Source of the DNA: a virus
Direction: 5' to 3' (one strand)
IMG/VR virus record: IMGVR_UViG_3300046002_008519
Location: 1-64,000 of that record
Length of the DNA: 64,000 nucleotides
The position numbers and the translations under genes were made by a program. A model generated the notes under the pieces. That model was not told the DNA's origin and did no database searches. It saw only the letters and a program-made list of their open reading frames with translations. Of the stretch, positions 359 to 54,642 are shown piece after piece (position 1 is the first letter of the stretch; each line of letters opens with the position of its first letter).

Positions 359-1141
359 TTATCCGTATACTACCTCACCCATAACACACAACTGTAAAAA
401 TATATCAGCATCGTTAGCATCGTATTGCTCGTCAAGTATATTTTCCCAAACGTCTGGGTAATCTTTTTTAACTAGTGTTATCGCTTCTAGAATTGAATCC
501 ATATCTACAGTACCTAATAAATCTTTATCTGAATGTTTTTCTTGATAATCATCATCATCGTATTCATCACCTTCGGCATCATAAAATTGTACGTAACCAC
601 CATTAAGGATATACTCACCAATAGCTTCAGATACTGGTTGACCCATTTCCTTGGCTTTATAGCGAATTTCTTTTGGTAAATGCTTTATATGATACCAATA
701 ATTTGAACCGCCTTCTAAAGCATCTACAAATAGGTTTATAATATCTTCTTTCCCAAAGGTTCTAGATTCTCTAGCTTTTAGTCTTTCTTCTTCGTATTTT
801 TTGTTGGCGATTAATTGGTTTTTAACCCTATTGAAAATTTCTTCCCTATCAGTTGAATACCAATTTTCAATACGTCTTTCCAATTGATTTATTTTATTTT
901 CTTTTTCTTTTTTTAAATCAAGAACATAATCTGTTGGTACACCTTCAAGCTTACCGCTAGCCATCGCTGTCAATATAGAATCTAACACTTTATGTGTCGT
1001 TTCTAATTCATTTTTCATCCCTTCTAACCCTTCTTTAGCTTGATTCACCTCTCGGTCAACAATTTGATTTATTTGTTCTAAATCTTCAGGTGTTAACCCT
1101 TCTAAGGATTCTCTAAGTAATTTTTTTATAAACGTTTTCAT
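359..1141 (-). CDS. tagged conserved phage protein with coiled coil and C-terminal 'SNYWY...VMGEVVYG' domain
   Basis: 260 aa. Starts with the tag MKTFIKKLLRESLEG shared by many genes in this window. A long charged coiled coil follows (about residues 15-125), then a C-terminal domain containing G-G-S-N-Y-W-Y, an acidic D/E run, and the end motif A-D-I-F-L-Q-L-C-V-M-G-E-V. I recognise that C-terminal pattern as recurrent in phage hypothetical proteins of unknown function. An ATATTTATA element ends 3 nt before the ATG. The L-R-E in the tag fits prohead-protease cleavage, so this is a candidate packaged protein; function unknown. Confidence 0.75.
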   Translation of the reverse strand: MKTFIKKLLRESLEGLTPEDLEQINQIVDREVNQAKEGLEGMKNELETTHKVLDSILTAMASGKLEGVPTDYVLDLKKEKENKINQLERRIENWYSTDREEIFNRVKNQLIANKKYEEERLKARESRTFGKEDIINLFVDALEGGSNYWYHIKHLPKEIRYKAKEMGQPVSEAIGEYILNGGYVQFYDAEGDEYDDDDYQEKHSDKDLLGTVDMDSILEAITLVKKDYPDVWENILDEQYDANDADIFLQLCVMGEVVYG

Positions 1142-1144
1142 AAC

Positions 1145-1153
1145 TATAAATAT
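1145..1153 (-). promoter_or_regulatory. late promoter-like element ATATTTATA, 3 nt before ATG
   Basis: Minus strand reads ATATTTATA-GTT-ATG. The same arrangement occurs at 2304-2312. If this is a -7/-10 type box, transcription would begin at or next to the start codon and the mRNA would be leaderless. Confidence 0.5.
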
Positions 1154-1154
1154 C

Positions 1155-1187
1155 TTGTAAATATAAAAAAATTTTCATATCTTTGCA
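1155..1187 (+). promoter_or_regulatory. Bacteroidota-type promoter for the HTH gene
   Basis: TTG at 1155-1157, 20-nt spacer, then TATCTTTG at 1178-1185. This matches the -33 TTG / -7 TAnnTTTG pattern of Bacteroidota housekeeping promoters. The ATG of the downstream gene is 28 nt further on. Confidence 0.75.
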
Positions 1188-1214
1188 TAATAATAATAAT
1201 TAAAAAATAAAATT

Positions 1215-1439
1215 ATGCCAGCAATTACACAAAAAGAAAGAGTTTTAACTGCTCTAAAAGACCCTAGAGGGTTAACACCATGGTATGCAATTAATGAATT
1301 AGGTAATACTAGATTAGCTGCAACAATTCATAATCTAAAAAAAGATGGTTATGAAATCACATCCGTACTTGAACACGGAATTAATAGATTTGGTGATAGA
1401 ATAAAATACAGTAGATATTTTTTACATGAAAATGAATAA
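1215..1439 (+). CDS. small helix-turn-helix DNA-binding protein
   Basis: 74 aa. The stretch from K-E-R-V-L-T-A-L through G-L-T-P-W-Y-A-I-N-E-L-G to R-L-A-A-T-I-H-N-L-K-K-D-G-Y-E-I is the pattern of the small HTH domain common in phages (HTH_39-like), in which residues 15-50 form the tri-helix and the rest a wing. It is the only plus-strand gene near this end, has its own host-type promoter and shares a bidirectional terminator with the convergent gene. Likely an early regulator; its target is unknown. Confidence 0.7.
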   Translation: MPAITQKERVLTALKDPRGLTPWYAINELGNTRLAATIHNLKKDGYEITSVLEHGINRFGDRIKYSRYFLHENE

Positions 1440-1451
1440 CTACTATAAAAC

Positions 1452-1481: not shown

Positions 1482-2300
1482 TTAATAATATAAATGACTT
1501 AAAAACCTTAAATTTTCTAAATTATCTGGTTCTGTATATTCTTGAAAAACTTTTTTACTTATTAAAAATTTTATAAGATTACTAAGCTCTATTTTTTCTT
1601 CTTTATTTAAAGATTCTGCTAAGTGTTCTGCCCAAACAATAACAAAATCTTGTAATTCTTCAATATTGTTATGAGAACCTTTTAGTTTTATTAATAAATT
1701 ATCAGATATCTCCATATCATCAATTTTTGTTTCTGGTGTAAAATGAATGTCATAAACAGAATAAATGCGTATTTTATTTAGGTCAAAAACAATATAGCTA
1801 TCACCACCACCTTCAAAAGTATTAACATAAACTATTGAATCATACCCCTTTTTTAATAACCAACCGTAAAACCAATTACCAATATCTTCGACTTCACCAC
1901 CTATATCATTTATAGAAACACCAGAGTTGGTTGTTAACATACCTTCTTCACCATCTGTTTCCATGAATAAAATTTCATCATCATCACCAATTTTAGGTAT
2001 TAACTCTTTAAGAATAGTATATGGTTTCCAATTACCTAAACGATTTTCTTCCATTCTAATTGGGTTTTTAATATTTAAAAAAACTTGATACAAATACCCA
2101 TCACCATTGTTTGTAATATTAAGTCTTTGTTCAGCTTGTTCACGACTACCAAAATGAAAACCAAATTCTAAATTATTTCGATATTCCAAAAAATCATATT
2201 TAAACTTTGTAAAATAATTTGGAGAACCATGCCACGCAAATAAACTATCACCAATTTTTCTTATTTCTTCTCTAAGTAACTTTTTTATAATATTCTTCAT
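1482..2300 (-). CDS. tagged ADP-ribosyltransferase-like protein, candidate injected effector
   Basis: 272 aa. Tag MKNIIKKLLREEI at the N-terminus. Then F-A-W-H-G-S-P (residues 21-27), G-F-H-F-G-S-R-E-Q-A, L-N-I-K-N-P-I-R-M, G-Y-D-S-I-V-Y and D-S-Y-I-V-F-D-L-N-K-I-R-I. This order matches the ART fold of phage and polyvalent-protein ADP-ribosyltransferases (H-G-S-P start, G-xx-F mid motif, final E/D-x-Y-x-V-F-D-x-x-x-I). The usual catalytic Glu before the last strand is not obvious (G-G-G-D-S-Y), so activity is uncertain. T4 Alt is a packaged ART processed by the prohead protease; the tag here suggests the same strategy. The C-terminal 80 residues are helical and unrecognised. Confidence 0.65.
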   Translation of the reverse strand: MKNIIKKLLREEIRKIGDSLFAWHGSPNYFTKFKYDFLEYRNNLEFGFHFGSREQAEQRLNITNNGDGYLYQVFLNIKNPIRMEENRLGNWKPYTILKELIPKIGDDDEILFMETDGEEGMLTTNSGVSINDIGGEVEDIGNWFYGWLLKKGYDSIVYVNTFEGGGDSYIVFDLNKIRIYSVYDIHFTPETKIDDMEISDNLLIKLKGSHNNIEELQDFVIVWAEHLAESLNKEEKIELSNLIKFLISKKVFQEYTEPDNLENLRFLSHLYY

Positions 2301-3112: not shown

Positions 3113-4942
3113 TTATCTCAACTCATTAATGTTAAATGTTTGTACACCGTCTACACGTAAATGGCCATAGAAACGATTATTCACAACCTTCTTAGCGTAA
3201 CGAGTCATGATACCTTTCACTGGAGCAAAGTTGAATGGGTTATACATAGTTGGAGTCAACTGTAATGGCACATACGGAGCGTAGATGTATCCAGTATCCA
3301 ATAATGATTTCCCTTTGTGACCAATGATGATTGAGTAAGCTGGTGCATATGGGTCACGATATACTTGATATCTACCACCTAATGAACCTACTCTTTCAAT
3401 ACCCATGTTGTATTGGTCTTGTTCTGGATTAGCGTCTGACACGTGGAAGTATTCTAAGTCGTCGAAGATTGCAGAAATTTCTGAAGATACAACGATGAAG
3501 TTAGCACCACCTCTAAGTGTAGATTTATGGATTTGAGCTGAAATTTGGTTTAATTTAGTAATTAAAGTTTGATTCCATTCTTTTTGAGTATATGGTTGAG
3601 CAGCGTTTGAAGTTTTTCTCCATCCGTTGTAATCCCAACGCAATTGCCATGCAGCAGCTTTACGGATATCTCTAAGGATTTCACGGTCAATTTCAGCAGC
3701 AACTTGTTCTGATAACATTGCAGTTAATTCAGCTTCAGCATCGATGTTGTGGAATGCACTAACGTCTTGCGCTAATTCTGGAGACCAAGTAGCTCTTAAT
3801 TTTCTTTCTTCTACAGAAACAACAACCTCATCAAGTCTGAATGATACTTCACCCATTTCTGTTTCAAACTCTAAAGTAGCGTAAGAAGCATAAGCAGCAG
3901 TGAAAGCTGAGAATGAAGAGTAAGTTGTAGCAGAAGTACCAATGTAACCATCGTAAGTTGCAGAACCAGTAGCAGCAGCACCAGCAGCAGCAGTTGTACC
4001 AGCTGGGTGAGTCAAGTCTAATTCTACCCAACATACACCGTTACCATCAGTAACAACGTTAGGTCCAGATACGATACCAACACCATATCTTTGAGTTACT
4101 AATCTAAAAGGAACTTCTTGACCAATAGCTATAACAGCGTTACCATTAGCATCCAACAATGTAGCAGGAGCAACAACTTTTAATGAAGCTAAGAATGATT
4201 CAGTATCCATAGGGTTACCATTAGGACCTGTTAATACTTCTCTACCGTTAGTACCAGCACCAGCTGAAAAACCAGAAAGAGCTAAAATTACATTTCTAAC
4301 AGAACCGTCAGCAGCTGTAGGTAATACAGTTGAAGCGCCAGTTACAATTGAGAATGTACCACCAGTTAATAATGTGTAAACAGCAGTGTTTAATGCGTTA
4401 ATAGTCATCGTACCTTTTGAGTTATCGAATAAACCATCATTGTAGAATAAATCATACAAGCTTTTACCCAGAAATGGAGTAACAGCACAACCAGCAACAG
4501 CTTGAACACATGATGGTAAACCATTTGAACCAAATGAAGTATGAGCTGAGAAAGTTACACCATCTCCGTCGTAATAATTACCAGCAACACCAGCACCGTT
4601 AACACGCTCAGATGTAAGAGGTACGAAGAAGAACAATTTACCGATTGGCATGTTCATAGCTTGTACAGATACGATATCGTTAGCTAATAATTTAGAGAAA
4701 ACTCTACGTACAATTGGGAATACAACAGTTTCGAAAGAACCTGATGATGCAGCTGTAGTAGATTCAGTTAATAATGAAGACGCTTGGTTTTCATATAATT
4801 GAGCAATATTTTCTTTTACGTGACCTTTAAGACCTTCTAAGAAGCCTAAAGAGTCCCATTTTTGTTGTGTTTCCAAACGGATAGCCTTCATGTGGTTTAA
4901 TCCGATGTTTCCAACTTGTCCTGAAGTCAATAAATGTGACAT
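3113..4942 (-). CDS. major capsid protein, T4 gp23-like
   Basis: 609 aa, longer than T4 gp23 (521). The N-terminus has E-N-I-A-Q-L-Y-E-N-Q (residues 44-53), equivalent to the gp23 propeptide I-I-A-K-I-F-E-N-Q, then S-L-L-T-E (56-60). By analogy with gp23 the prohead protease should cut after Glu60. F-P-I-V-R-R-V-F and V-S-V-Q-A-M-N-M-P-I-G-K follow, the conserved gp23 start of the mature fold. The central region (about 150-345) is Gly/Ala/Thr-rich and probably an inserted surface domain. It forms the capsid hexamers. It follows the scaffold gene closely and ends in a strong terminator. Confidence 0.93.
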   Translation of the reverse strand: MSHLLTSGQVGNIGLNHMKAIRLETQQKWDSLGFLEGLKGHVKENIAQLYENQASSLLTESTTAASSGSFETVVFPIVRRVFSKLLANDIVSVQAMNMPIGKLFFFVPLTSERVNGAGVAGNYYDGDGVTFSAHTSFGSNGLPSCVQAVAGCAVTPFLGKSLYDLFYNDGLFDNSKGTMTINALNTAVYTLLTGGTFSIVTGASTVLPTAADGSVRNVILALSGFSAGAGTNGREVLTGPNGNPMDTESFLASLKVVAPATLLDANGNAVIAIGQEVPFRLVTQRYGVGIVSGPNVVTDGNGVCWVELDLTHPAGTTAAAGAAATGSATYDGYIGTSATTYSSFSAFTAAYASYATLEFETEMGEVSFRLDEVVVSVEERKLRATWSPELAQDVSAFHNIDAEAELTAMLSEQVAAEIDREILRDIRKAAAWQLRWDYNGWRKTSNAAQPYTQKEWNQTLITKLNQISAQIHKSTLRGGANFIVVSSEISAIFDDLEYFHVSDANPEQDQYNMGIERVGSLGGRYQVYRDPYAPAYSIIIGHKGKSLLDTGYIYAPYVPLQLTPTMYNPFNFAPVKGIMTRYAKKVVNNRFYGHLRVDGVQTFNINELR

Positions 4943-6348: not shown

Positions 6349-7074
6349 TTAGTCAGATAAAAATTTATCTAAGCTGTCTTTTAAATTTTCGTTTATAAGT
6401 GGTTTTTTAATTTCAGTGTTTTCAACATAAGGTCTCATTTCTTCAGAACTACGACCAATCCACGCATCTGGTGTTGATGGTGCGGTCACAACATCCCAGC
6501 AAATAATCTCAAAATCGTCTTGAACAACTTGTTCTCCGTTTTTACCTTCTTTCAATGAACCAACACCTCTAGAAGAAACTCCAATTTTAATTCTGTTTCT
6601 TAATAAGTTTGCAACTTCATCACCCTTGGTTGATACGATACCTAAATTAATAAAACCAGGTGTCATTAAAATTTCCATTTTACCCATAAGTGTTTGACCT
6701 TCCCACCATGTTTCAACAATGTTATGTGAAATTCTATCACCAGCAATAATTGAAGACTCTGGGTGGTCTAACTCACCAACAGCTCTACGTTCTCTAATGG
6801 CTTCTTGATATAATTTGTCTTGTGATTTAAGTATTGATTCTGGGTATACTCTACCGTTACGATTAAGAATACCGTATTTCTGTAGAACCACATATACGAT
6901 TAACGGCTCAACAATAGCTAGTTTGCCACCACCATCCATTTTTTTTATCTCATTGATAAAAAGTTGGTTTCTAGGTTCTTCTGGGTTAATATATCCAGCG
7001 TCGTGTTCAATAAGACCACCCCAACCAGTTTCACCTCTTTTAAGTATTTTAAAATCTTTATAATTTATATCCAT
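6349..7074 (-). CDS. prohead core protease, T4 gp21-like
   Basis: 241 aa. G-E-L-D-H-P-E (His104) and I-G-V-S-S-R-G-V-G (Ser167/168) match the His and Ser catalytic motifs of gp21-type serine proteases (T4 His85, Ser140). N-R-N-G-R-V-Y-P and P-S-T-P-D-A-W-I-G are also typical of the family. It cleaves scaffold, capsid propeptide and internal proteins at I/L-x-E sites during head maturation. Here it is the likely processor of the LRE tags seen on many proteins in the window. Gene order matches T4. Confidence 0.92.
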   Translation of the reverse strand: MDINYKDFKILKRGETGWGGLIEHDAGYINPEEPRNQLFINEIKKMDGGGKLAIVEPLIVYVVLQKYGILNRNGRVYPESILKSQDKLYQEAIRERRAVGELDHPESSIIAGDRISHNIVETWWEGQTLMGKMEILMTPGFINLGIVSTKGDEVANLLRNRIKIGVSSRGVGSLKEGKNGEQVVQDDFEIICWDVVTAPSTPDAWIGRSSEEMRPYVENTEIKKPLINENLKDSLDKFLSD

Positions 7075-8252: not shown

Positions 8253-9041
8253 TTAATCGTTGTTATTTAAAGTTACTTTTAGCTCAATTAATTTAGAAAT
8301 GTTTTTAGCAAACTCCTCATTTATTTCAATTGTGTTCCTTAATAACTTATCTTTAACTTTAAGTAAACTATCTTTGGTTTCCAAATCTGATTCAACTAAT
8401 CTAATATCAATTAAATCAATACACTCTCTATTGATTTTATTATAAACTTCTATTTTTTCTTTGTCAGTAGACTCAATTAAAATTTTAAGTGCTTTTTTTT
8501 CGGTTTCTGTTAATTCAGAATATCTTTCATTATATTTTTCAACAAGAATAGAACTTAACATACTATTTGGGATATCATAAGATTCATTAACAACTTTTTC
8601 TTTATTTGTTGTTATGTAATCTAAAACATTTTTTATGTTCTTAGCGATTTCATTTACAGTTTTTGTGTTTTTATCTAAAAACACAAGGTTACTAATAGAT
8701 GTGTGTAAATTACTAAGTTTTTCATCATAAGCTTCTTCTAATCTATTCTTAACATCTTTTGACAAAGAAACTAACTTTTCGTTTTCACTTAAAATGTTTT
8801 TTTTGTTAAATTTATTTAACAAAGCGATATTCTCACTTACAATTAAATTCGCAGAAAACTGGTCGTTTTCAATAACGTTTTCTATGTTTTCATAAACTAA
8901 AAATTGAGTTTTCAATATATTACTTTCCTTAAGCGCTTTAATGTATTTTTTGAACAATTTCTTTTTAGCCACATCGTTTGAAGCTATTCCTTCTGCCAAA
9001 ATTTCACTAAACGCATTTTTTATTTTTCCAAAATTTTGCAT
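8253..9041 (-). CDS. putative prohead core protein with capsid-targeting-like N-terminus
   Basis: 262 aa, almost entirely helical and charged. The N-terminus reads F-S-E-I-L-A-E-G (residues 11-18): L-A-E fits the I/L-x-E cleavage consensus and resembles T4 internal-protein signals. Position between portal and protease suggests a gp68-like core component. Function is inferred from position and composition only. Confidence 0.6.
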   Translation of the reverse strand: MQNFGKIKNAFSEILAEGIASNDVAKKKLFKKYIKALKESNILKTQFLVYENIENVIENDQFSANLIVSENIALLNKFNKKNILSENEKLVSLSKDVKNRLEEAYDEKLSNLHTSISNLVFLDKNTKTVNEIAKNIKNVLDYITTNKEKVVNESYDIPNSMLSSILVEKYNERYSELTETEKKALKILIESTDKEKIEVYNKINRECIDLIDIRLVESDLETKDSLLKVKDKLLRNTIEINEEFAKNISKLIELKVTLNNND

Positions 9042-9084: not shown

Positions 9085-11187
9085 TTATTCGTCCAACATT
9101 TTATTTATGTCATTTATCATATTATTAACGTCTTCGTTAATCTTAACGTTTTTGTCGTATATTTTCACGCTAAGATTATCACCCTTACCCTCTTTGTTGA
9201 CCGATTCAACCAACACATCAACAAAACGCCTTTGATATTTTTGAGTTCTATCAGATAATTTTTTATTCAAATGTTCTTTTCTTTCTGTTAATATTTTTTG
9301 AGTCTTCGCAATTGATTCTGCCAAGGCATCAGGTGTTGCACCAGCTTCAGGCGTTACACCAGCATCAGGTGTTGCACCAGCTTCAGGGGTCGCTCCAGCA
9401 TCAGGAGCTGCACCAGCTTCAGCCCCAGCGTCAGCACCGAAAGCACCAGCATCAGCCCCAGCCTCACCTCCAGCTTCAGCACCAGCTTCAGCACCAAAGT
9501 CTAAATCTTCACCACCTAAACCGCCTCCACCGAAGCCTCCACCGCCTCCACCGAAGCCTCCACCGCCTCCACCAGCTTCTCCACCAGCTTCTTCACCACC
9601 TTGAGCTCCTTTAAGGGCAGCTTGATAATCACCATATATTTTATCAACGGCATCAAACATACCAGTATGTTTAATTACGGCCGAAGTATTTTGTAATTCA
9701 GCTGCTGCTGCTTTTTCCATACGTTGTTCTAACAAGTCTTGTTTAATTTCATCGTCAGACCAACCCAAGATATCCCTATGCGCTCTAGTCCAAGACATAA
9801 CACTAAAACCAGAACCAATATCAGAAGTTGAATCTTTAACAAGGGCAACTTTTGTTTGCATGTGTTCAATCTTAAGCATTTCAGCTTGAGTTGATGGGTT
9901 ATTAAGGGTAAGTGTAAAATTATCTAAATCGTCTTCAAATCCAAGAAGAAATAAATGAACAATCGCTATTTTATTTAATTCTTGTAACATTGATTGTTGA
10001 ATACGGTTAATAGTTCTAGAAAAACGTATATCTTGCATCGCAAGGTTTTTACCATCACCAGCAGCTTCATCAAAACCTAAAAATGGTTTAGGTACACGCA
10101 AAGCTGTAAACAAGTTTCTTTGCAAATATTCAATATCGGCAATTTGGTCTAAGTTTGACGCACCTGGCAAAGTATCAATTGGGTTTGGTGCGCTTTCATC
10201 TCTAACTGGTATAAAGAAATCTTGGTCGTTTGAAAGTTGGTTGTATCTCAAATCAATTTGACCTGTTTGTGGGTCAATAATTGGCATACGCTTAAATCTA
10301 TCAGCAATTGCGTTAACATATTGTTCAACATCTGCATCATCAATATTACCAACATATATTTTATATACACGTCTTTCTGGTGCTCTAGTCACACGATAAA
10401 CAAGCATTGAATCCTCAGATAGGATAAGTTGTTTCCAGATACGTCTAGCTTTCTCTAATACACTGGTACCATAAGGTAAACGTCTATCATCACCCAACAA
10501 ACGGAAATGTGCAATTTGCCATGAATTAAATTCAATATCACGACCTCTCCAATAAAATTTAACTTTATCTTTGTTTTCAGATTGGTCATCAGCAATTTCT
10601 CTACCACTAACTAAATCGTATAAACCAGCTTCTCTACGTTCTATTTCGTAGTTTGGCATTTGTTTAGCTGAAACAATACCTTGATTCTCATTGATATTCA
10701 AATACACAAAATTGTCACCATATTTACATGTGTTTCTAGTCCACATTGGTAATGTAGTGTGTAAATCCAAACGGTTAAAGAATAAATCCTCAAGGATACC
10801 CTTAACACGCTTACTGTCTGAGTATATATTAAGAACTCTACCTCTATCATTAACAGTAGTAGATTCTTCCATCATAACATCCAATGCGGCTGCAATTGTT
10901 GGGTAAAATTCCATAGCTTCAAAATCAGCGTAAGACCCAACACGCGTTGTTTCATAGTTAATTGATTGTTGAAATAAACCATTTTCGATTCTTTTCCAAG
11001 TACTTTGTAAATATTTGTTTTGCTGTGCTTGTAATTTAGCTGTTTCGTATTCTTCTTTGTTAGTTGTTTTTAATAACTCACCACCACCCAAATTAAAACG
11101 TTGTGTTGTTTGTTTTTGTGGTGGGTTATAATTTGGGTTAACAACTCTGTTTAACCTTTGAAATATAGTTAAATTTTCTTTTGCCAT
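9085..11187 (-). CDS. portal protein, T4 gp20-like
   Basis: 700 aa, longer than T4 gp20 (524). Y-E-T-T-R-V-G-S-Y-A-D-F-E-A-M-E-F-Y-P-T-I-A-A is the conserved gp20 start; V-Y-R-V-T-R-A-P-E-R-R-V-Y and P-F-L-G-F-D-E-A-A-G-D-G are further portal family motifs. It forms the dodecameric vertex through which DNA is packaged. About residues 528-630 are a Gly/Ala/Pro-rich low-complexity insert with A-G-A-T-P-D/E units, followed by a normal helical C-terminus. The insert is absent from T4 gp20 and may be a flexible extension. Confidence 0.92.
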   Translation of the reverse strand: MAKENLTIFQRLNRVVNPNYNPPQKQTTQRFNLGGGELLKTTNKEEYETAKLQAQQNKYLQSTWKRIENGLFQQSINYETTRVGSYADFEAMEFYPTIAAALDVMMEESTTVNDRGRVLNIYSDSKRVKGILEDLFFNRLDLHTTLPMWTRNTCKYGDNFVYLNINENQGIVSAKQMPNYEIERREAGLYDLVSGREIADDQSENKDKVKFYWRGRDIEFNSWQIAHFRLLGDDRRLPYGTSVLEKARRIWKQLILSEDSMLVYRVTRAPERRVYKIYVGNIDDADVEQYVNAIADRFKRMPIIDPQTGQIDLRYNQLSNDQDFFIPVRDESAPNPIDTLPGASNLDQIADIEYLQRNLFTALRVPKPFLGFDEAAGDGKNLAMQDIRFSRTINRIQQSMLQELNKIAIVHLFLLGFEDDLDNFTLTLNNPSTQAEMLKIEHMQTKVALVKDSTSDIGSGFSVMSWTRAHRDILGWSDDEIKQDLLEQRMEKAAAAELQNTSAVIKHTGMFDAVDKIYGDYQAALKGAQGGEEAGGEAGGGGGGFGGGGGGFGGGGLGGEDLDFGAEAGAEAGGEAGADAGAFGADAGAEAGAAPDAGATPEAGATPDAGVTPEAGATPDALAESIAKTQKILTERKEHLNKKLSDRTQKYQRRFVDVLVESVNKEGKGDNLSVKIYDKNVKINEDVNNMINDINKMLDE
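9310..9602. repeat. low-complexity Gly/Ala/Pro-coding tract inside portal gene
   Basis: Short imperfect tandem units (for example GGTGTTGCACCAGC-type and CCGCCTCCACCGAAG-type) coding for G-G-F-G and A-G-A-T-P repeats. Local GC is clearly higher than in neighbouring DNA. Confidence 0.8.
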
Positions 11188-11235
11188 AATTTGTTTTTTA
11201 TTTTAATATATTAAAAAATCTTAAAAATTAAATAG

Positions 11236-45222: not shown

Positions 45223-47403
45223 TTATATTCTATCCAAGATAAAATCTTTATCATCTGGCATATACTTGTCAATTATTGGTTCCAAATACGGATACAACTC
45301 TTTTTTATATAAAAGACTTACCATATCATACTTCTCCAATTGTCTAAATACAGAATCAGGTAAGTATTGAATTACCTTCGGAACACTTCTCATCAAATCA
45401 ATTATATAATTCATACCAATTTTATCATACAATTGACGTGCAAGAATTGGTTTACTATGTATCATACTATATATTCTATATTCACCCATCTTTTCAATAC
45501 GCTCATCAGGTATATATTTTAAGGCTTTTGGGTTTTTTACTATAATATCTTTTAAATCTAAATCAACAATATCGTTAATTTTATCACCTAAGTGTTTAAA
45601 CAATGTTGGTTGATTTGTTAAAATAATAACAAGGTCATAAGAACTAGTGACAAATCTTAACAATTCTGGTTTATAAATAAAAGCCTTGGCTTTAGTGTCA
45701 TACATCAAAGTATATCTAAGTGGGTTATATTCTTCTTTAGAATTTATAACAATGTATTTATCCCTAATCAACAAAGGAAGCAAATCACCATATTTTAATC
45801 TACCTAAAAGGTCTAATTTTTTTTCCTCTGATATATTATCTAGTATTATTTTATAACCAGTAGAATCCTTTTCTAATACGTTGGCTAATTGCCATGTACC
45901 TAATTCGTCAAAACCTTCTGATTTAACCAAATATTGAGTCAATTCAGGGTAGTCGTAAACGAGCAATTGTACTTGATATTTGGTTAATTTATTTATGTTT
46001 TCTTTAACTTCAGGTGACTTAATAATACTAGGTTCAGCATAAATAGCCTGAAATAATTCATGGTTATTACTTAAAACATATCTATCTATATTTATTTTAA
46101 CGTTCGGTAATAATTTTTTTATCACCTGCAATTCATCAAATTCCAATTTATCTTGGTTAATACTACGACTATCATGAATTTCGGTCCCGTTGTTGTTTCC
46201 ATCTATCCTTAACATAAAGTATTTTTTAAGCATATCTTCTGACATGTGCTTATAAAAAGCTTCATCAATTTTTTTGTTGTTATCTATCTTTAACTTTATA
46301 ATACGATTTATCTGAGTTGGTGATAACACGTCTTCATATAATGCTGTGTCGTAATACTTGTAAACAAAATAACCAACTTCAATAAGACTATCCATCGTTT
46401 CTTTTCTAAGGCTTTTTAACTGGTCTAAATTAAAAGACATTTGATTGGCAGCTAAATCCCTAATAAAATCAGCTGGTGTTACTTGAGAACCGTTAACCAC
46501 AAGCCCTTTTATGCTTCTATCAACCAAGTCTTGTAAATCATTCGCAATAAAACGAGCTTTAACACTATCCAATAACTCAGAGTATTTACGCTCATCGTCA
46601 GTTATTTCTCTATATGTAAAATATCTCTCAAGACCTTTTAAATTAGGTAGTTGTTGCTCTATTTCATCCCATGGCATCGCATCACTTTTACCACCACTTC
46701 TTAAACCAGTGTTGGTTCTATCCGCAATGGCGTATCCATTATAACCACCATAGTTCATAATAACCAATTTTTGTTCGTCACCTTTGATATTCTTTTGCAA
46801 AACAAAATATGGTGTGGCACCATAGCTAAGTCTATATGTGTTGTAAAAATTTGAATCAGCTTTGGTAATACACCAAGATTCCCCTTTTCCATACATTACA
46901 CACTTGGCTTTGGTGTTGGTATCCAAAATAATAACGTTATTATCTTCATAAAGAACATCTTCTTGATTGGGTTTTTCTATGCTCGTCCCGATACCTATTT
47001 CTTCATCTTTTACCCATCTATTGTTATTAACCAAATCCACAAGACCCTGTTCAACTTTTTTCATTGAAAATGGTCTAGCTTTGTCACCCAACAAAACAAT
47101 GTTGTTTATGTAAGCGTCTAAGTATTTCTTGGCCAACTCTCGGTTGTCAGGAAATGAAGTGGTTTTAACCAAATCATCTAACACTCTATCATACCAATTG
47201 TTAAACACCTCATCAAATTGTTCTTTGCTTTTATATTGCATGATATCACCAAAAGATTGTTTAAACAAATAAGCAATTGCCAGTTTGTTTATCATATCAT
47301 TTGAAGAATCGTTAAATCTTTTTGTTACTGGTTCGATAACACTTTTTCCGTAGAATTCGTTTACCAACGTTTCTCTAAGTAATTGTTTTACTATATTTTT
47401 CAT
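45223..47403 (-). CDS. tagged large protein with W-C-I motif and degenerate repeats
   Basis: 726 aa from ATG 47403 (MKNIVKQLLRETLVNEF). This start is one base after the upstream stop and places the tag at the N-terminus, so I prefer it to the ATG three codons earlier. About 165-240: A-K-C-V-M-Y-G-K-G-E-S-W-C-I-T-K-A-D, P-Y-F-V-L-Q-K-N, L-V-I-M-N-Y-G-G-Y-N-G-Y-A-I, the PcfJ/WC-type core. The rest is helical with repeated motifs such as L-x-x-Y-P-E-L-T-Q-Y-L. Last gene of the operon starting at 54.26 kb. Confidence 0.7.
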   Translation of the reverse strand: MKNIVKQLLRETLVNEFYGKSVIEPVTKRFNDSSNDMINKLAIAYLFKQSFGDIMQYKSKEQFDEVFNNWYDRVLDDLVKTTSFPDNRELAKKYLDAYINNIVLLGDKARPFSMKKVEQGLVDLVNNNRWVKDEEIGIGTSIEKPNQEDVLYEDNNVIILDTNTKAKCVMYGKGESWCITKADSNFYNTYRLSYGATPYFVLQKNIKGDEQKLVIMNYGGYNGYAIADRTNTGLRSGGKSDAMPWDEIEQQLPNLKGLERYFTYREITDDERKYSELLDSVKARFIANDLQDLVDRSIKGLVVNGSQVTPADFIRDLAANQMSFNLDQLKSLRKETMDSLIEVGYFVYKYYDTALYEDVLSPTQINRIIKLKIDNNKKIDEAFYKHMSEDMLKKYFMLRIDGNNNGTEIHDSRSINQDKLEFDELQVIKKLLPNVKINIDRYVLSNNHELFQAIYAEPSIIKSPEVKENINKLTKYQVQLLVYDYPELTQYLVKSEGFDELGTWQLANVLEKDSTGYKIILDNISEEKKLDLLGRLKYGDLLPLLIRDKYIVINSKEEYNPLRYTLMYDTKAKAFIYKPELLRFVTSSYDLVIILTNQPTLFKHLGDKINDIVDLDLKDIIVKNPKALKYIPDERIEKMGEYRIYSMIHSKPILARQLYDKIGMNYIIDLMRSVPKVIQYLPDSVFRQLEKYDMVSLLYKKELYPYLEPIIDKYMPDDKDFILDRI

Positions 47404-47404
47404 C

Positions 47405-49606
47405 TTATACATTTCCTATTCCAAGCCATTTGCTTTTTATTTTATCATTTACCCACTCATGTCCACCACCAGTGATTTTAACCGCCCTATCAACAATCAA
47501 TTGTCTAAAAGGTGCTTTACCCTCAGCCGACCAATAAGATTTGTTGGTTTCTTTAAAAAATGGTTTAACTTCATTCTTACTAGCAACCTTACATCCACTA
47601 GCACCACAAATTACATACACATATTCCGTACCAGTTGGTATAATAGGAAAATAAAATCCATTCTTGCCACTCTCAAGCATATCATATCCTTGTACTGGTT
47701 TGTAATTCCCCTTCTTAGGACCAACAACATAATCAGGGTTGATTCGCTTCATCGCTCTTTCATATGTATCTTTCCAACCAAATATAAACCTAGTATGCTT
47801 GAATATTTTATCATACATTGGGTTTGGAACCTTTTTGCCAAATTTGTCTACAACAGTCTTGTTCATATAATCATTCATAGATGAAATATAATATGCAGTA
47901 CCAGTTGTCATTCGCTTAGGGTCTTGGTCCAAAAATTTACGTATGTCGTTGGAATATCTTTCTTCAGTTACAAAATTCTCTCTAAGCATATTCTTAACTC
48001 TTACCTTGCTCTCGTTGATTTCTTCAATTCTAATCTCACCAAGCTTGTCTTGCAATAACTCGTTGAAATATTCATTGTTAATATCAGGTGAATAATAATT
48101 GTCGTTGAACCTAAAGTCAGGTTTGTCAATCCACTCACCCATCATCTCATCAAACATACAACTCATATCATCGTTGCATCTATCAGAAATCTCTTCATAA
48201 ACATCTTCTTCCAAATCATCTATATACTTACCAACGTTAACACGCAACACAACACCAGTATCATCCATTTTTTCAACAACACCTAATTCTTCTAGAGCCT
48301 CTTCTAACTTCTTGTATATATCATCAGCATAAGTATCAGACTCAGCATCGTTGACAGCTCTTTGTATAGCATGAATAATCTCTTGGTCCTCATCATATTC
48401 TTCAATCATATCTTCCAACGATAAATCTTCATCAATCTCAACACCATTCTTGGCAGCCATCGCTTGCAATATCTGACGAATTTCATTTTCGCTATTACTG
48501 TCAGCATTATATTCCAAAGCACCCTTCCAATCCGCATCATAATTGTCCCACAAATCCCACGTGTCACCAGCCAATATTATTTCAAACAACCCAATGCTTC
48601 TTCCTTCACCATAAACATTAGCCCTTTCTTTACGAACCGTATAATCACCATCAATATATCTATCAACCATATCAGGTGAAATCTCAATAGACACATACTC
48701 CTCAGGCAACTTGTCAATAAGACCCATAGCAACAAGCTTCTTCTTAAGGCTTCTCTTGTTAAATAACTCAGGACGCTTGGCAAATATCTCCCTAATAACA
48801 TCATCACTAAAATCAGTCAACTTAAAATCACTAGAACTCTCATATTCACTACCAAACCCGTTGATAAAATATCCATCACCCCTCTTCAAAAATAACAATG
48901 GGTAAATATACTCATGATATACAGCTTCAGGCTTGCTATTCTTTCCACCCTTCATCTGATACACTATGCCATTGGTGCCAATAGCAGCAGTCAACACAGA
49001 TTTGTTAAGCTTGTATTTGTCATTAAGCGGAATGACTTGTCTAAGAGAATAAATTCTACCAGCGCCACTAGTGCCACAATGTCCCATACGGTCACATTCC
49101 TCTTTTGAACTACCAGTTTCCAAATCAGCCCAATAAAACCCATTGCCGCTGGCATCCCTAAAGTCAAGTATAATAGGATTTTCTTCAACATAGTTGATGT
49201 CACCAGAACCAACCTCCAATTCATCATGCCATTGTTTAGAAGCATCAAACAATTCTTGGAAACTTAATTCTTTGTTGGAACCCAAGTTTCCGTTAAGACC
49301 AACACGAACCCAGTCCATAATAGAAGTAATGGTTTGTCTCTCATTGTTAACTCTTCTATCATCTGCCATTTTTTGAATTGTAACTTTTCTTAATTCAGCT
49401 GGTGATAAATCTTGTATCATACGACCATAATATGTCATATAATAATCAATAATCTTGTTACCTATCCAAATACTCAACGGACCACAAAGCCTATCAAGTA
49501 TCTCAGCTGACTCCTCATCAAATCCAATCTTGTTAATAAGGATATCTTTTTTTGAAGCCTCATGAATAAGCCCCTCTCTAAGTATATTGCGTATGTTTGT
49601 GTTCAT
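47405..49606 (-). CDS. tagged large protein with an internal second tag
   Basis: 733 aa. Tag MNTNIRNILREGLIHEASKK. About 150-240: E-E-C-D-R-M-G-H-C-G-T-S-G-A-G-R-I-Y-S-L, L-T-A-A-I-G, I-V-Y-Q-M-K-G-G-K-N, another PcfJ/WC-like Cys domain. A long acidic region follows. At about residue 537 an internal E-S-K-V-R-V-K-N-M-L-R-E-N-F-V-T-E-E repeats the tag and precedes a second, basic domain (F-I-F-G-W-K-D-T-Y; V-I-C-G-A-S-G-C-K-V). This suggests a two-part polyprotein cut by the prohead protease. Confidence 0.7.
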   Translation of the reverse strand: MNTNIRNILREGLIHEASKKDILINKIGFDEESAEILDRLCGPLSIWIGNKIIDYYMTYYGRMIQDLSPAELRKVTIQKMADDRRVNNERQTITSIMDWVRVGLNGNLGSNKELSFQELFDASKQWHDELEVGSGDINYVEENPIILDFRDASGNGFYWADLETGSSKEECDRMGHCGTSGAGRIYSLRQVIPLNDKYKLNKSVLTAAIGTNGIVYQMKGGKNSKPEAVYHEYIYPLLFLKRGDGYFINGFGSEYESSSDFKLTDFSDDVIREIFAKRPELFNKRSLKKKLVAMGLIDKLPEEYVSIEISPDMVDRYIDGDYTVRKERANVYGEGRSIGLFEIILAGDTWDLWDNYDADWKGALEYNADSNSENEIRQILQAMAAKNGVEIDEDLSLEDMIEEYDEDQEIIHAIQRAVNDAESDTYADDIYKKLEEALEELGVVEKMDDTGVVLRVNVGKYIDDLEEDVYEEISDRCNDDMSCMFDEMMGEWIDKPDFRFNDNYYSPDINNEYFNELLQDKLGEIRIEEINESKVRVKNMLRENFVTEERYSNDIRKFLDQDPKRMTTGTAYYISSMNDYMNKTVVDKFGKKVPNPMYDKIFKHTRFIFGWKDTYERAMKRINPDYVVGPKKGNYKPVQGYDMLESGKNGFYFPIIPTGTEYVYVICGASGCKVASKNEVKPFFKETNKSYWSAEGKAPFRQLIVDRAVKITGGGHEWVNDKIKSKWLGIGNV

Positions 49607-49622: not shown

Positions 49623-51455
49623 TTAACTTCTAAGTATTTTTCGTATATTTTTTCTGCTTTCATCAATAACACCAACCAAACGTTTAATATTGTCAGTTGG
49701 GTTTTTGATATAAAAATAGGCGTTTTCATTATTTTTAACTGCTGCCATTTGAACAACTTCTGATGGGTCCTCAATAAATTGAATAGCATACCCGTTTTGA
49801 TTAACAGCCTCAAGTTTAGCATTTTCAGTAGGGTTTTTTATGAAATTAATAACATCATAGTTATAATAACCACCTATTTGGATTGCCGCTATCTGAATAG
49901 CTTCAGATGGGTTGTTGATAAATTGTATCGCTTTATATTCACTTTTTATTGCAGCCAACTGAAGATTTTCAGACGGGTTTTCAAAGTGCTTAATCATAAG
50001 ACCATTACTAATCACAGAAGATAATTTAAATTCTTCAGATGAATTTTTCATATATCTAATTGACATCGGATTTATTAAAATAGCATGTTTTTGCATTTCA
50101 TAACTTAACTCACCCATAAATTGAATCGATGTAGGACTATTATGAATCAACCACCCAATAGAGCTCTCAGTTTTACCTAAAACAGAAAAAATATAATCAA
50201 CAAAACGCTGGTTTGTATCAACGTTATTCATAATAGCCCTAAAAATATTTTTGTCTATGTTTTGTCCAAAAAAATCTAACAACCATATAAAAAACTCAGT
50301 GTTGTCACCAGAAGGTATTTGATTAACCAATTTAACAATATTGTCATATTCATCCCAATCTTTACCGTTGGCGGTAAATATCAATTTTGCAATGTCTAAT
50401 CCATGACCACTTTTGACAGCATGATTAACAATATCTCTATATGGATATTCAGAATTATCTTTTTGTTGACTTATAAAATGTTTAATCTTGTCAAAATTAT
50501 TTTTAAAATAATCGTAATCATATTTTATCAAAGCCGTCAAACCACCCATAGATTTCATCAAGTCTTCTTTTCTGTAGTTACCAAACTCAGCTTTTCTAAA
50601 ATCATCCATCGCAACATGCCCACCATTATCCTTGAACCATTTAACCATGTCATTATCATCATAAAAAGTATAAACGTTAGGTGTAAGCGTTTTTAACTCT
50701 TCTATAATTTCATTGGTGGCTTCTTCCTTTTCTCCCTTTTCTTCATCAGCATAATAATCCATCGCTCTATCTGGCAACCAAGCCAAAGATAAAACCCTTA
50801 CATTTTTTACCAACAATTCATTCCACCCATTGTCAAAACTTGAACTAAAAACCATTTTAATCAAATTGTCTTTAATCTCATCATGATATTTATCAAACAA
50901 CCCAAACATGTGGGTCATATATGTTCTAACATCACTAGGGTTATCGTTAAATTTAAAAGTACTAAAATAATTAACCAAATCATCATATAACCTATTGGAT
51001 AATAATTTAGCAGAAATCCATCTCCTGTTAACCGATTGGTCAAGAGTAGACATAATGTCATTAGAACCCATGATGTCCATAACACCACCTATCTTAAGAA
51101 CAATACCACCTTGGGTTTGTATACCCCTAGCGCTTCTTATCCCACCCTCACCAAAATACTTGAACGCAGATATGGAATTTCGCTTGCCAATAATCTTTTT
51201 AATCTCAAATACTTTTTTCAAATCAGTAACGTGAAAAGCTTCCACAACCCTAGGTTCATCAAACATTCTTTTGACAATGCTAGAAGTCAAAGGAATTTCA
51301 CCATTTCTTAATTTTTTATCTTTGTTGCTCACCCACATGACCTCATCCAACAACTCTTCACTAATCAAATCAATATATGATTCAAAAAGAATATCTTTCT
51401 TTGAAGCCTCAAGAATAAGCCCCTCTCTAAGTATATTGCGTATGCTTGTATTCAT
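49623..51455 (-). CDS. tagged large protein with HVT-type domain and DUF4116-like repeats
   Basis: 610 aa from ATG 51455, which overlaps the upstream stop as TAATG. Tag MNTSIRNILREGLILEASKK. About 75-150: V-V-E-A-F-H-V-T-D-L-K-K-V-F, N-S-I-S-A-F, T-Q-G-G-I-V-L-K-I-G-G, an arrangement reminiscent of ART-like domains (possible, not proven). About 430-600: six or more repeats of N-P-S/T-E-x-x-Q-L/I-A-A-I-x-x-x-x-x-A-I-x-F-I/Y-x, like DUF4116 repeats. Its first 23 codons are nearly the same DNA as in the next gene. Confidence 0.7.
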   Translation of the reverse strand: MNTSIRNILREGLILEASKKDILFESYIDLISEELLDEVMWVSNKDKKLRNGEIPLTSSIVKRMFDEPRVVEAFHVTDLKKVFEIKKIIGKRNSISAFKYFGEGGIRSARGIQTQGGIVLKIGGVMDIMGSNDIMSTLDQSVNRRWISAKLLSNRLYDDLVNYFSTFKFNDNPSDVRTYMTHMFGLFDKYHDEIKDNLIKMVFSSSFDNGWNELLVKNVRVLSLAWLPDRAMDYYADEEKGEKEEATNEIIEELKTLTPNVYTFYDDNDMVKWFKDNGGHVAMDDFRKAEFGNYRKEDLMKSMGGLTALIKYDYDYFKNNFDKIKHFISQQKDNSEYPYRDIVNHAVKSGHGLDIAKLIFTANGKDWDEYDNIVKLVNQIPSGDNTEFFIWLLDFFGQNIDKNIFRAIMNNVDTNQRFVDYIFSVLGKTESSIGWLIHNSPTSIQFMGELSYEMQKHAILINPMSIRYMKNSSEEFKLSSVISNGLMIKHFENPSENLQLAAIKSEYKAIQFINNPSEAIQIAAIQIGGYYNYDVINFIKNPTENAKLEAVNQNGYAIQFIEDPSEVVQMAAVKNNENAYFYIKNPTDNIKRLVGVIDESRKNIRKILRS

Positions 51456-52261
51456 TATCTTAAATTTTTTTGGTACCAATCTTTATCTTCTTGTGATAAA
51501 GACCAATCTTTACCACTTTCTATTTTATTTTTAAAATATTTCATCTTCTGTTCATCAGTAGCATAGGATAATTCTAGTTTTGTTAAATAACTACCACTAT
51601 CTATTACACTATTTATAACTTTATCCATTAATTCACGAGACAACATTTTAAATTCTAAATTAGTTAACAAATGTTTGTTTTTATTAACAATGTTTTCTAG
51701 ATATTTGTTTATATATTCTTTAGGTAAATAGTTTAAAACATATTCTTCAACTTTATCATCATCACTATATAAAAAGTTTTTTCCGATACTTTTTAATGCT
51801 TGTCTAATTGCGTAGTCTTTTTTTAACTCATCTGACAAAATAGAAAATTCATATTCATGTAAATTTCTACCGTCTGGTCTGTCAATAATCATTTTTAAAT
51901 AAGATATCTTATTATTCTCTGGTAATGAATCAAATACAGATTTGGTTAACCAATGTCCTTTGGATACTCGATTATAAACATAAAACCTAGCAACACTAGG
52001 CTGAACCGTATCCAATTCCCATTTTTCGACAGGTTCCCAACCTTGATTTATTTTTTTTAGAATCAACACACCCAATTCATTTTTTTGAGCCCCATCCATT
52101 AAATCAAATTCATATTTTTCAATATCATAATTGTGTTTTGAAGCAATAATTCGTTTACGTATATATGTTTTTTTATCAGCACCAGATAACTGTGTGATTT
52201 GATATTCTGGCAATTTTAATCCAGTGTCAACATATTTTCTTATAAGGTCTTTATTGTTCAT
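51455..52261 (-). CDS. repeat-family paralogue 1 (MNxKDLI family)
   Basis: 268 aa. M-N-N-K-D-L-I-R-K-Y-V-D-T-G-L-K-L-P, Q-L-S-G-A-D-K-K-T-Y-I-R-K-R. Third of three tandem paralogues; each overlaps the next by 11 nt or shares stop and start. Helical throughout. No recognised family or catalytic motif. Confidence 0.65.
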   Translation of the reverse strand: MNNKDLIRKYVDTGLKLPEYQITQLSGADKKTYIRKRIIASKHNYDIEKYEFDLMDGAQKNELGVLILKKINQGWEPVEKWELDTVQPSVARFYVYNRVSKGHWLTKSVFDSLPENNKISYLKMIIDRPDGRNLHEYEFSILSDELKKDYAIRQALKSIGKNFLYSDDDKVEEYVLNYLPKEYINKYLENIVNKNKHLLTNLEFKMLSRELMDKVINSVIDSGSYLTKLELSYATDEQKMKYFKNKIESGKDWSLSQEDKDWYQKNLR

Positions 52262-52688
52262 TTTTTATTTTTTTGTAATATTCTAATTCCTCAGGTGATA
52301 ATTTATCAAGAAACCATTGCCAATTAAAATCTTTAATTGCTAAGGCTCTTAAATATTTTAGCTTAGATTTGTTATTAAAATACCAATACAAATCAGGGTT
52401 TATAATATAACCTTTTTCTATCGTTCTATCTAAATAAAAATCTTTAATTTCATCAGAAACTTTAGTAAATAAAATTGAATTAAGATTATGTTTTTCTATA
52501 AATGCTTTCTGTTGCTCAATATCCATAGAATTAAGTTCATAACCTTCTAAATTATCTTCATTGTTTTGAGCAATAAAACGCTTACGCAAATAAGTCTTCT
52601 TATCAGCACCAGATAACTGATTAAACTGATATTCTGGTATACCTACACCAGTATCCACATATTGTTTTATAAGGTCTTTATGATTCAT
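52251..52688 (-). CDS. repeat-family paralogue 2 (MNxKDLI family)
   Basis: 145 aa. M-N-H-K-D-L-I-K-Q-Y-V-D-T-G-V-G-I-P and Q-L-S-G-A-D-K-K-T-Y-L-R-K-R-F-I-A match its neighbours; shorter C-terminus. Overlap of 11 nt with each neighbour. Confidence 0.65.
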   Translation of the reverse strand: MNHKDLIKQYVDTGVGIPEYQFNQLSGADKKTYLRKRFIAQNNEDNLEGYELNSMDIEQQKAFIEKHNLNSILFTKVSDEIKDFYLDRTIEKGYIINPDLYWYFNNKSKLKYLRALAIKDFNWQWFLDKLSPEELEYYKKIKNEQ

Positions 52689-53292
52689 CTTTAATTAAAT
52701 TGTGCTTTTTAATAATGTTTAAAAAATCTAAATATATTTCATCCCTGTAGTTTGAAACCTTCCATCGAATACTATCATGGTTTAATATATTTTTCCCATG
52801 ATATTTTATTAAATTTTTAATATAATATATCTTTAATTCATCAATTAAATCTTTGAAAATATCAACAATTGATTTTTTGTCTAAAGAAAGACTAGCGTTC
52901 CATTTTAAATATCTAAGCTTATCAGTAAATGGTAATTCAAAAAATTGGTTTCTAGGTAAACTAACCCCTTTATTAATTACCATATCCAAATATTTTGATT
53001 TAAATTCGTCACGCAATTCTCTTAAAAATTCATCCAAATCTCTATTACCCGATAAATTATAAAAATTAATTTTTTTTGTAAATAATTCATCATAATACTT
53101 ATCCATATCTACAGAATCCATCAAATCAATCTCATAAGGAGATAATTCAAATACATTTGAAGATTGTTTATTAGCAATTAAACGTTTTCTCAAATATGTT
53201 TTCTTATCAGAACCAGATAACTGCATGACTTGATATTTGGGTAACTTTAACCCAGAATCCACATATTGTTTTATAAGGTCTTTATGGTTCAT
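52678..53292 (-). CDS. repeat-family paralogue 3 (MNxKDLI family)
   Basis: 204 aa. M-N-H-K-D-L-I-K-Q-Y-V-D-S-G-L-K-L-P, Q-L-S-G-S-D-K-K-T-Y-L-R-K-R-L-I-A. First of the tandem set; its ATG overlaps the stop of the upstream gene. Only the first 55 residues are well conserved among the three, so the C-terminal parts have diverged or been replaced. Confidence 0.65.
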   Translation of the reverse strand: MNHKDLIKQYVDSGLKLPKYQVMQLSGSDKKTYLRKRLIANKQSSNVFELSPYEIDLMDSVDMDKYYDELFTKKINFYNLSGNRDLDEFLRELRDEFKSKYLDMVINKGVSLPRNQFFELPFTDKLRYLKWNASLSLDKKSIVDIFKDLIDELKIYYIKNLIKYHGKNILNHDSIRWKVSNYRDEIYLDFLNIIKKHNLIKDES

Positions 53293-54260
53293 TATTTCTG
53301 CATCAAATAATCAAATTGGTCGTTGGTCAACAAATGACCCCTTCCAATATACTTAGACTTATAATCAATAGGTAATTTGATAAACCATTCAAGATTATTA
53401 TTTTCTTGACCCAACAACTCATCCTCTAGTTTTTCTTGGTCAGTCTTAGGTTTGTTAACCAACATCTTATCAACAGGAACTCCCATAGACCCCAAATACT
53501 CAACGTAGCTATCAGCATCATCACCATAAGGCTCAGCTATAGTACCAGTTGTGTTATTAGCATCAGTCAACTCAACACCATACTGCGTATTGTCAAACAC
53601 AACCATATGCAAAGGGTCATCCAAATTAATACTACCATCAGCTTCAGTGGCAAAATGATTTTTATCAACAATATAATAAAATGTTGATGTTTTGGAATCA
53701 CGATAAGATTGGAACATGTTTGACGGCCCAGGGAGACCAATACAAAACGAATAACCCCTACCCGTCAAACCACCACTACCATAAGAAATACACTTACCAA
53801 TACTGTCACCAGCATAAATGTCAATACCATTCCCACTCCATATAGGCTTCTTTTCAGCCTTGAAATCAGCGGCAACACTAGATTTTATTTCACTAGACCT
53901 ATTCAACTCATTCGTCTTGCCATGAATAAACTCAGAAAACTTTATAAAGTCATTGTATGTGTTGTCACCCAAAACAAGACCATCCCTTGTCAACTGTATG
54001 GTTTTTACTTTGCCCAATTTTTCCAACTCGTTGTACTCATTTACAACACTAGTTATGTTGCGAACGTTTTTGTAACCGCTGGCATATAAATAAGCCATGA
54101 TTGGAAGATTTTTTTGGTTGTTGCTGACATCAGCAGCCTTGAATTCAGACATAACACCCTCAGCATTTTCCGCTCCAGCCTTTTTTAATATATTCAATCC
54201 TTGCGCTTCAGTAGCCTTGGATTCCAATAACCTTTGATAAATTTCAAATATTTTAATCAT
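53292..54260 (-). CDS. Cys-motif (S-F-C-I-G) protein, first gene of the large-protein operon
   Basis: 322 aa from ATG 54260 (MIKIFEIYQRLLESKATEAQ). Frames further upstream overlap the divergent gene and the promoter, so this start is chosen. R-L-L-E is a possible divergent tag. About 160-240: G-K-C-I-S-Y-G-S-G-G-L-T-G-R-G-Y-S-F-C-I-G, S-T-F-Y-Y-I-V-D-K-N-H-F, H-M-V-V-F-D, fifth member of the Cys-domain set. The C-terminus G-H-L-L-T-N-D-Q-F-D-Y-L resembles motifs of the three following paralogues (for example G-H-W-L-T-K-S-V-F). Confidence 0.68.
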   Translation of the reverse strand: MIKIFEIYQRLLESKATEAQGLNILKKAGAENAEGVMSEFKAADVSNNQKNLPIMAYLYASGYKNVRNITSVVNEYNELEKLGKVKTIQLTRDGLVLGDNTYNDFIKFSEFIHGKTNELNRSSEIKSSVAADFKAEKKPIWSGNGIDIYAGDSIGKCISYGSGGLTGRGYSFCIGLPGPSNMFQSYRDSKTSTFYYIVDKNHFATEADGSINLDDPLHMVVFDNTQYGVELTDANNTTGTIAEPYGDDADSYVEYLGSMGVPVDKMLVNKPKTDQEKLEDELLGQENNNLEWFIKLPIDYKSKYIGRGHLLTNDQFDYLMQK

Positions 54261-54276
54261 TCTTTTATATTTTATG

Positions 54277-54289
54277 TATTTATAAATAT
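54277..54289. promoter_or_regulatory. palindromic late element TATTTATAAATA between divergent genes
   Basis: A perfect 12-bp palindrome containing TATTTATA on each strand, located 21 nt before the plus-strand ATG and 17 nt before the minus-strand ATG. One element may fire in both directions. Confidence 0.5.
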
Positions 54290-54309
54290 AATTTAAAACC
54301 ATAAAAAAT

Positions 54310-54642
54310 ATGAAAAATACCATAAAACAACTCCTAAGAGAAAATTTTGTCTTTGATGATAAAGACTTCGCAAAAAACAGACTCGCTGGCGCCGAAAAAA
54401 TAATAGCAAACGCCAAAGAAAAAGGTGGCGACGCAATGCTTACATATAACCACTTCAACGTTAAACCAGCTTACTACAAAAAAGCCATCAACGGAAAATT
54501 TGACATAGAACAAGCCACAAAAGAATATAACGAAACATTCAAGAAAATATCTCTAGATATGACCCAAACAGAATTCCAAAAAGAAGTGGGTAGACTTGAA
54601 GTGCTCGGAGAACTAATTATCAAAAACAAAAACCAAAAATAA
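54310..54642 (+). CDS. tagged small protein
   Basis: 110 aa. Tag MKNTIKQLLRENFVFDD. Helical, basic; repeated K-A and A-x-K-I motifs. No family recognised. Codon use is richer in C than neighbours, for example many AAC and GCC, which may reflect a different origin. Last late-type gene before the G-rich boundary. Confidence 0.62.
   Translation: MKNTIKQLLRENFVFDDKDFAKNRLAGAEKIIANAKEKGGDAMLTYNHFNVKPAYYKKAINGKFDIEQATKEYNETFKKISLDMTQTEFQKEVGRLEVLGELIIKNKNQK

Follow-up and report, generated by a model that had tools for sequence, protein, structure and literature searches.

In this study, we examined a 64 kb window (positions 1 to 64,000) of the 67 kb virus record IMGVR_UViG_3300046002_008519, from a giant lake-water phage, and relate a short N-terminal tag found there on unrelated proteins, MKxxIKxLLRE, to the internal proteins of phage T4. 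Judged from sequence, the tag is most probably a T4-type capsid targeting sequence that is cut after LLRE and used widely by giant T4-like phages, a reading to which we assign a probability of about 0.86. By analogy with T4, the proteins behind the tag (hereafter, cargo) would be targeted to the growing head, cleaved there and packaged. T4 already provides the principle. What is added here are the tag sequences themselves, their occurrence across at least 51 families in giant phages of lake and marine waters, a second tag that can replace the first, and protease sites where domains join. We found no report of the tag in the open-access literature. Freshwater Bacteroidota phages of up to 331 kb, which the window phage resembles, have been described with late expression of their head genes, and the accessible part of that description makes no mention of a tag (PMC9723584).

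Open reading frames (ORFs) were called mechanically at a minimum of 60 aa, with start codons inferred from sequence. A strict form of the motif, [ILV][KR]x[LIV][LIV][RK]E, lies within the first 10-12 residues of 9 of the 85 ORFs in the 67 kb record and at a single site elsewhere. When two relatives (369 and 362 kb) are added, it occupies 19 of 13,044 N-terminal positions and 5 of 214,631 others, a 62-fold enrichment per position (p ~1e-27). This motif was chosen after the window had been seen, but the contrast between the N-terminus and the rest of the same protein is independent of that post hoc choice. The generic register φ..φφ.E (φ, hydrophobic) shows a 3.3- to 3.9-fold N-terminal excess in T4, in the cultured Tenacibaculum phage pT24 and Flavobacterium phage immuto, and in the window record; in two crAss-like Bacteroidota phages without a T4 head it is not significantly N-terminal (1.0- and 1.6-fold).

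All ten start codons named in the first-pass annotation give products headed by the tag or by an evident variant of it, and three further tagged N-termini had been overlooked (ORF 37224-37565 and those starting at 43015 and 54260). As that annotation held, the bodies behind the tag are unrelated, among them an ART domain (PF18760, E=1.7e-10), an HExxH metallopeptidase and several proteins matching no family, and the HNH, ClpC-like, thioredoxin and thyA genes carry no tag.

T4 targeting relies chiefly on residues 4 and 7, and processing on residues 8 and 10, with gp21 cutting after L/I-x-E (PMC9026906). T4 IPII and IPIII begin MKTYQEFIAE↓A (the arrow marks the cut), and their register, YQEFIAE↓A or φ-x-x-φ-φ-x-E, is that of the window tag: I5, L8, L9 and E11 are spaced exactly as Y4, F7, I8 and E10 of IPIII, shifted one residue later. 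The proposed fit of L-R-E to the T4 (I/L)-x-E signal is borne out by this common register. T4 gp24 begins MAKINELLRE↓S, so that INELLRE↓S shares the register, I-x-x-L-L-R-E↓S, at nearly equal distance from the start; from this motif we take its cut to fall at E10. This short N-terminal propeptide is removed by gp21 (PMC5694885), and gp24 is, unlike the presumed cargo, a capsid vertex protein that is not injected.

The window encodes a T4-type head module, with terminase (11499-13265), portal (9085-11187), major capsid protein (3113-4942) and a gp21-type prohead protease (6349-7074, minus strand, late box upstream), the presumed cutter, whose earlier assignment a match to phrog_207 upholds (E=1.8e-39). 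In relatives, the major capsid protein has a nearly invariant predicted propeptide end, LL[TSNA]E↓ followed by S/T/A/G/N, and the prohead-core protein, with few exceptions, carries [FY]xx[IL][LIV]xE↓[GSA] near its N-terminus. The corresponding predicted sites in the window, both on the minus strand, are ASSLLTE60↓S in the capsid propeptide (4763-4942, ORF 3113-4942, phrog_138) and FSEILAE17↓G in the core protein (8991-9041, ORF 8253-9041, late box upstream). The predicted capsid and core sites thus agree with L-L-R-E↓[NGSA] of the tag.

The capsid targeting sequence of IPI, IPII and IPIII (PMC9026906, PMC12373910) is likewise N-terminal, about ten residues long, borne by unrelated proteins and accompanied by an encoded gp21. 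In contrast, the window tag reads MKxxIKxLLRE instead of MKTYQEFIAE and is known here from sequence alone, the cargo is more numerous and larger and includes enzymes, a second tag type exists, and tags also stand between fused domains. In phage SPN3US, the diverged head proteins gp53 and gp54 share the identical short N-terminus MANFVKSKLARESVE and a protease site ending x-E, but there the specificity is A-x-E, propeptides mostly exceed 100 residues and two paralogs are involved as opposed to tens of families (PMC5694885).

Beyond the window, a degenerate DNA pattern for MKxxIK[KQE]LLRE, scanned over 2.9 million viral contigs, returned at least 119 stretches, nearly all at ORF starts, compared with one for the reversed pattern. 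After removal of duplicates, at least 94 distinct tagged genes remained, whose bodies form at least 51 unrelated families (single-linkage BLAST). In cellular genomes (257 Gb), the pattern matched at 26 dispersed sites, of which many fell in frames that were very short or out of place and none resembled a family of tagged phage genes. The motif residues of the 94-gene set are fixed by the search pattern and only positions outside it are independent: among the matches listed, P1' (directly after the Glu) is N, G, S or A in 68 of 94, P2' is Leu in 65 of 94, and 36 of 94 have another Glu five residues on (position 16), giving LLRE-x-LLxE.

A homolog search that is blind to the tag was made with the body of ORF 29868-30275 (HExxH...ENEAN metallopeptidase), which carries MSKGFIKQLLRE↓ at 29868-29903 on the plus strand with a late box at 29844-29851. 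All 28 distinct close relatives retain the P1 Glu and L/I-x-E, 10 of them in N-terminal tags and 18 in positions classed as fused or internal. Several of the fused proteins run from a GNAT domain through the tag to a zinc ribbon, a short linker and the HExxH domain; where a tag already stands upstream, the targeting half is gone from the linker and L/I-x-E remains (SLNE, NLNE, PIKE). If the tag is a capsid targeting sequence, these decayed cases would set its part for targeting apart from its part for cleavage. In distant phages, hydrophobic-x-E lies no more than 25 residues before the HExxH domain in 29 of 31 proteins (41% by chance), and stand-alone forms begin MKTFKQYLNE, MFSFKRYLEE or MKNFRSFLHE, which resemble T4 targeting sequences. 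HExxH and ENEAN are invariant in the domain. An AlphaFold2 model (pLDDT 87) places the tag, at low confidence, off the folded domain, and a fold search (best E 2.8e-3, abylysin; protein-DNA crosslink protease, TM 0.58) weakly suggests a zincin metallopeptidase fold; a sequence search of the PDB with this ORF gave chance-like matches only.

Tags or L/I-x-E sites also stand between the domains of multidomain proteins (GNAT, zinc ribbon, HExxH; DUF5661) at L281, L285, L263, L255, L376 and L458 and in window ORF 31116-32672; these proteins resemble polyproteins that the prohead protease of the phage would cleave. The window example is built of DUF5661, a middle part, the internal tag MNENNKKLIKKLLRE (32274-32318, plus strand; probably a polyprotein junction) and a C-terminal part. 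It is the one clear internal copy that we found, where two had been claimed.

The same cargo also occurs behind other tags. About a dozen proteins of phage pT24 share a recurrent N-terminus of that phage's own, M..I..Y[IL]xE, and the pT24 ART homolog, 30% identical to ORF 1482-2300 outside the tag, begins MLGLERYIIE↓S; the window protein itself begins MKNIIKKLLRE↓ (2268-2300, minus strand, late box 2305-2312). In phage immuto, which has T4-type gp20, gp21 and gp23, four or more proteins carry MENFDLKKFLVE↓N or a sequence close to it, and the immuto homolog of ORF 54310-54642 (67% identity outside the tag) begins MRLLELLRE↓A, in place of the window's MKNTIKQLLRE↓ (54310-54342, plus strand). At locus L215, the homolog of the same ORF bears a second tag type, MKIKITEEQYKRTMNALLE↓A, behind a late box. 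This second recurrent N-terminus, M..K[LF][ILV]ITExQ[YF]xxL, is found on many unrelated phage proteins, often with a late box (window 37503-37565, L361, L373, L398, L407, L455 and others), and is probably a second packaging tag, judging from its sequence; of 78 distinct sites of this type (KLIITExQY...L/I-x-E) collected irrespective of a start codon, 58 fell within 8 codons of an ATG. A HAD-like cargo was likewise found with MKKILRE↓G, MNIKLTESQYKLLKE↓F and SSLLE↓G. Cargo differs between close relatives, and its enzyme domains comprise ART, HExxH metallopeptidase, Nudix-like, HAD-like and nucleotidyltransferase-like types.

Homologs of the window ART were too few for a family study. ORF 1482-2300 matched PF18760 (ART-PolyVal) and no Alt model; it may work like T4 Alt, and we do not class it as Alt. 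Polyvalent ART proteins have been predicted to be packaged and injected, and ART-PolyVal and zincin-like enzyme domains are common to polyvalent proteins and the window; the portion of that work available to us describes no short packaging tag, whereas in the window single-domain proteins carry one (PMC5512222). The window ART has one recognized domain, and relatives of ORF 29868 include the GNAT, zinc-ribbon and HExxH fusions described above.

In the three genomes, gp21, terminase, core protein, tail genes and many others have the box ATATTTAT ahead of their start codons, for the most part at a distance of 12-21 nt; it precedes 7074, 9041, 13265, 1141, 2300 and 40032 in the window as well as many genes of G001 and G002. 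Reading as T4's TATAAATA on the other strand, it is likely the late promoter. TATTTAT occurs within 45 nt of 56 of the 94 tagged genes (6 expected) and in 44 of them ends 4-6 nt before the ATG, so that transcripts may be near-leaderless. Judged by this shared box, tagged genes may be expressed late, alongside the head genes. A general bias of start regions, raised in the first-pass annotation as a possible flaw, was not seen: across the three genomes the strict tag stands on 1 of 183 genes with early-type promoters and 9 of 160 late-box genes, most late-box genes being untagged. Between 56 and 67 kb, where the promoters are TAnnTTTG of the Bacteroidota type, the genes are untagged.

We envisage that tagged proteins would be made late in infection and that the hydrophobic residues I5, L8 and L9 would draw them into the growing prohead core, as residues 4 and 7 do in T4. 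There, gp21 would cut after the Glu of L-L-R-E, often also at a second site five residues on, and the mature cargo would remain in the head through exit of the propeptide and packaging of the DNA. When the phage infects, this cargo would probably enter the host along with the DNA; least certain are its injection and the part that each protein would play as an effector. By analogy, we consider it fairly probable that at least some cargo is injected. The internal proteins that T4 injects act as inhibitors of type IV restriction enzymes (PMC12373910); this, together with the predicted injection of polyvalent ART proteins, makes a role of the cargo in counter-defense or host takeover plausible.

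Several observations weigh against the interpretation as a cleaved targeting sequence. The generic pattern φ..φφ.E is enriched weakly in G001 and G002 (1.5-1.6-fold), where it is too loose, hence our reliance on the strict motif and on samples found through cargo. About 40% of tagged genes lack a late box, some of them in operons or close behind another gene. P1' is Arg in 8 of 94 among the matches listed, and the L231 homolog of ORF 36898-37221 has Asp instead of Glu at P1 (MKLKSKIKKILRD); in T4, Asp at P1 permits packaging and blocks cutting. A gp21 match was present in just 12 of 40 records found through the tag, but most of these are fragments, from which the capsid gene (found in 14) is missing along with gp21, and the count is therefore uninformative. 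Redone on large records found through the ORF 29868 cargo, it gave a gp21-type protease in 15 of 15. With the exception of co-occurrence in short fragments, the sequence-level predictions of the T4-type reading that could be tested were positive.

Among other explanations, the tag might pack and mature proteins that form or assemble the head, T4 gp24 being the precedent, with the same targeting and cutting and a cargo other than injected effectors. The closest known propeptide, MAKINELLRE↓S of gp24, does belong to a shell protein (PMC5694885), and the prohead-core protein of this clade has the same kind of site. However, cargo that varies among close relatives, spans at least 51 families and includes enzyme domains is unlike essential head parts, and we regard this explanation as unlikely. 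Some tagged proteins could nonetheless be head-building, so that the case for effectors for injection is weaker than that for packaging and cutting. Much less probable is an amphipathic helix, never cut, that anchors late proteins to the membrane or to a host or phage partner. By calculation, the tag has a high hydrophobic moment (0.59-0.68), but an uncut helix does not account for a Glu that is invariant and fixed in position, for small residues at P1', or for L/I-x-E retained at internal junctions after the helical half is lost, and the tags of other lineages have lower moments in the same register. We give very little credence to a nucleotide-level signal, in which the late promoter 4-6 nt before the ATG (44 of 94 distinct tagged genes) and the first codons would form a translation start for near-leaderless mRNAs: synonymous codons vary while residues hold (position 9, CTT 38 and TTA 38; Arg as AGA, AGG or CGN), some tags lack the box, lie within ORFs or stand between domains, and most late-box genes are untagged. 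Shared descent alone, with the tagged genes as diverged duplicates or recombinants of one gene and a functionless N-terminus, would suit ORFs 47405 and 49623, which are alike over their first ~20 residues and past the tag end, yet is scarcely credible given at least 51 unrelated families, the same cargo with different, lineage-matching tags in other phages, and a Glu that neutral remnants would not retain in 28 of 28.

A capsid targeting sequence of this kind may belong to something broader. We hold it about evenly balanced that giant T4-like phages of Bacteroidota share a general grammar of packaging, built from two or more interchangeable tags (MKxxIKxLLRE↓ and KLIITExQYxxLxxxLxE↓) and from inter-domain protease sites, that loads dozens of unrelated enzymes into the head, cargo moving between lineages and being re-tagged to suit the protease and core of the new phage. 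The proteins that phages inject besides DNA are mostly unknown, as virion proteomes exist for few phages. If the capsid-targeting reading is true, sequence would predict which proteins such phages may inject into bacteria, and the packaged, probably injected proteome of many uncultured giant phages could be listed, including anti-defense candidates. Cargo of unknown function would gain a time and place of action, and the tags could serve directly as labels that send proteins into T4-like heads.

The remaining tagged genes of the window are as follows. On the minus strand, ORF 359-1141 (phrog_2355 in its C-terminal part) begins MKTFIKKLLRE↓ (1109-1141, late box 1146-1153); the tag is retained in all close homologs, and its body as query found 4 loci only. 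ORF 36898-37221 has a long variant, MDLKPKIRKVLRE↓ (37183-37221), and the neighboring ORF 37224-37565 the second tag type, MKTKLIITESQFNKVKTILSE↓ (37503-37565, late box 37570-37577). Further along the same strand, MKNIVKQLLRE↓ (47371-47403) opens ORF 45223-47403, whose mechanical start is 47412 and whose homologs begin MNSIIKKLLRE or MKDIIKKLLKE. MNTNIRNILRE↓ (49574-49606) opens ORF 47405-49606, MNTSIRNILRE↓ (51423-51455) ORF 49623-51455, and a variant, MIKIFEIYQRLLE↓ (54222-54260, late box upstream), marks the likely start of ORF 53292-54260. On the plus strand, ORF 30268-31113 (membrane helices) has a degenerate tag, MYSTKTLLRE↓ (30268-30297), followed by a second conserved site, LLSE, and homologs beginning MYNIKKILKE or MNTIKALLKE. 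ORF 40032-41189 begins MKSLIKQLLRE↓ (40032-40064, late box 40011-40018), and ORF 43015-43869 (nucleotidyltransferase-like, phrog_36119) has a divergent tag, MKLFFKKNIIIE (43015-43050), its L183 homolog beginning MKNIIKKLLRE.

In some cargo (G002 10732-11313; window 31116-32672), an Ala/Gly/Leu-rich stretch ending near AQG↓Q follows the tag; it resembles a signal peptide and could export the protein after injection. Three adjoining untagged ORFs at 51455-53292 have a common repeat, MN[HN]KDLI[RK]xYVD[TS]GxxxPxYQ..QLSxxDKKTYxRKR, which appears again in L179. A phage-borne PcfJ-like protein (PF14284) is encoded at 43902-45134 with a TAnnTTTG-type promoter. Finally, the block of small genes at 55000-67253 of the record, with TAnnTTTG promoters and repeated leader-like spacers (TTGTTATATCTTTGCA...TTAA), is likely the early region, judging by these elements.

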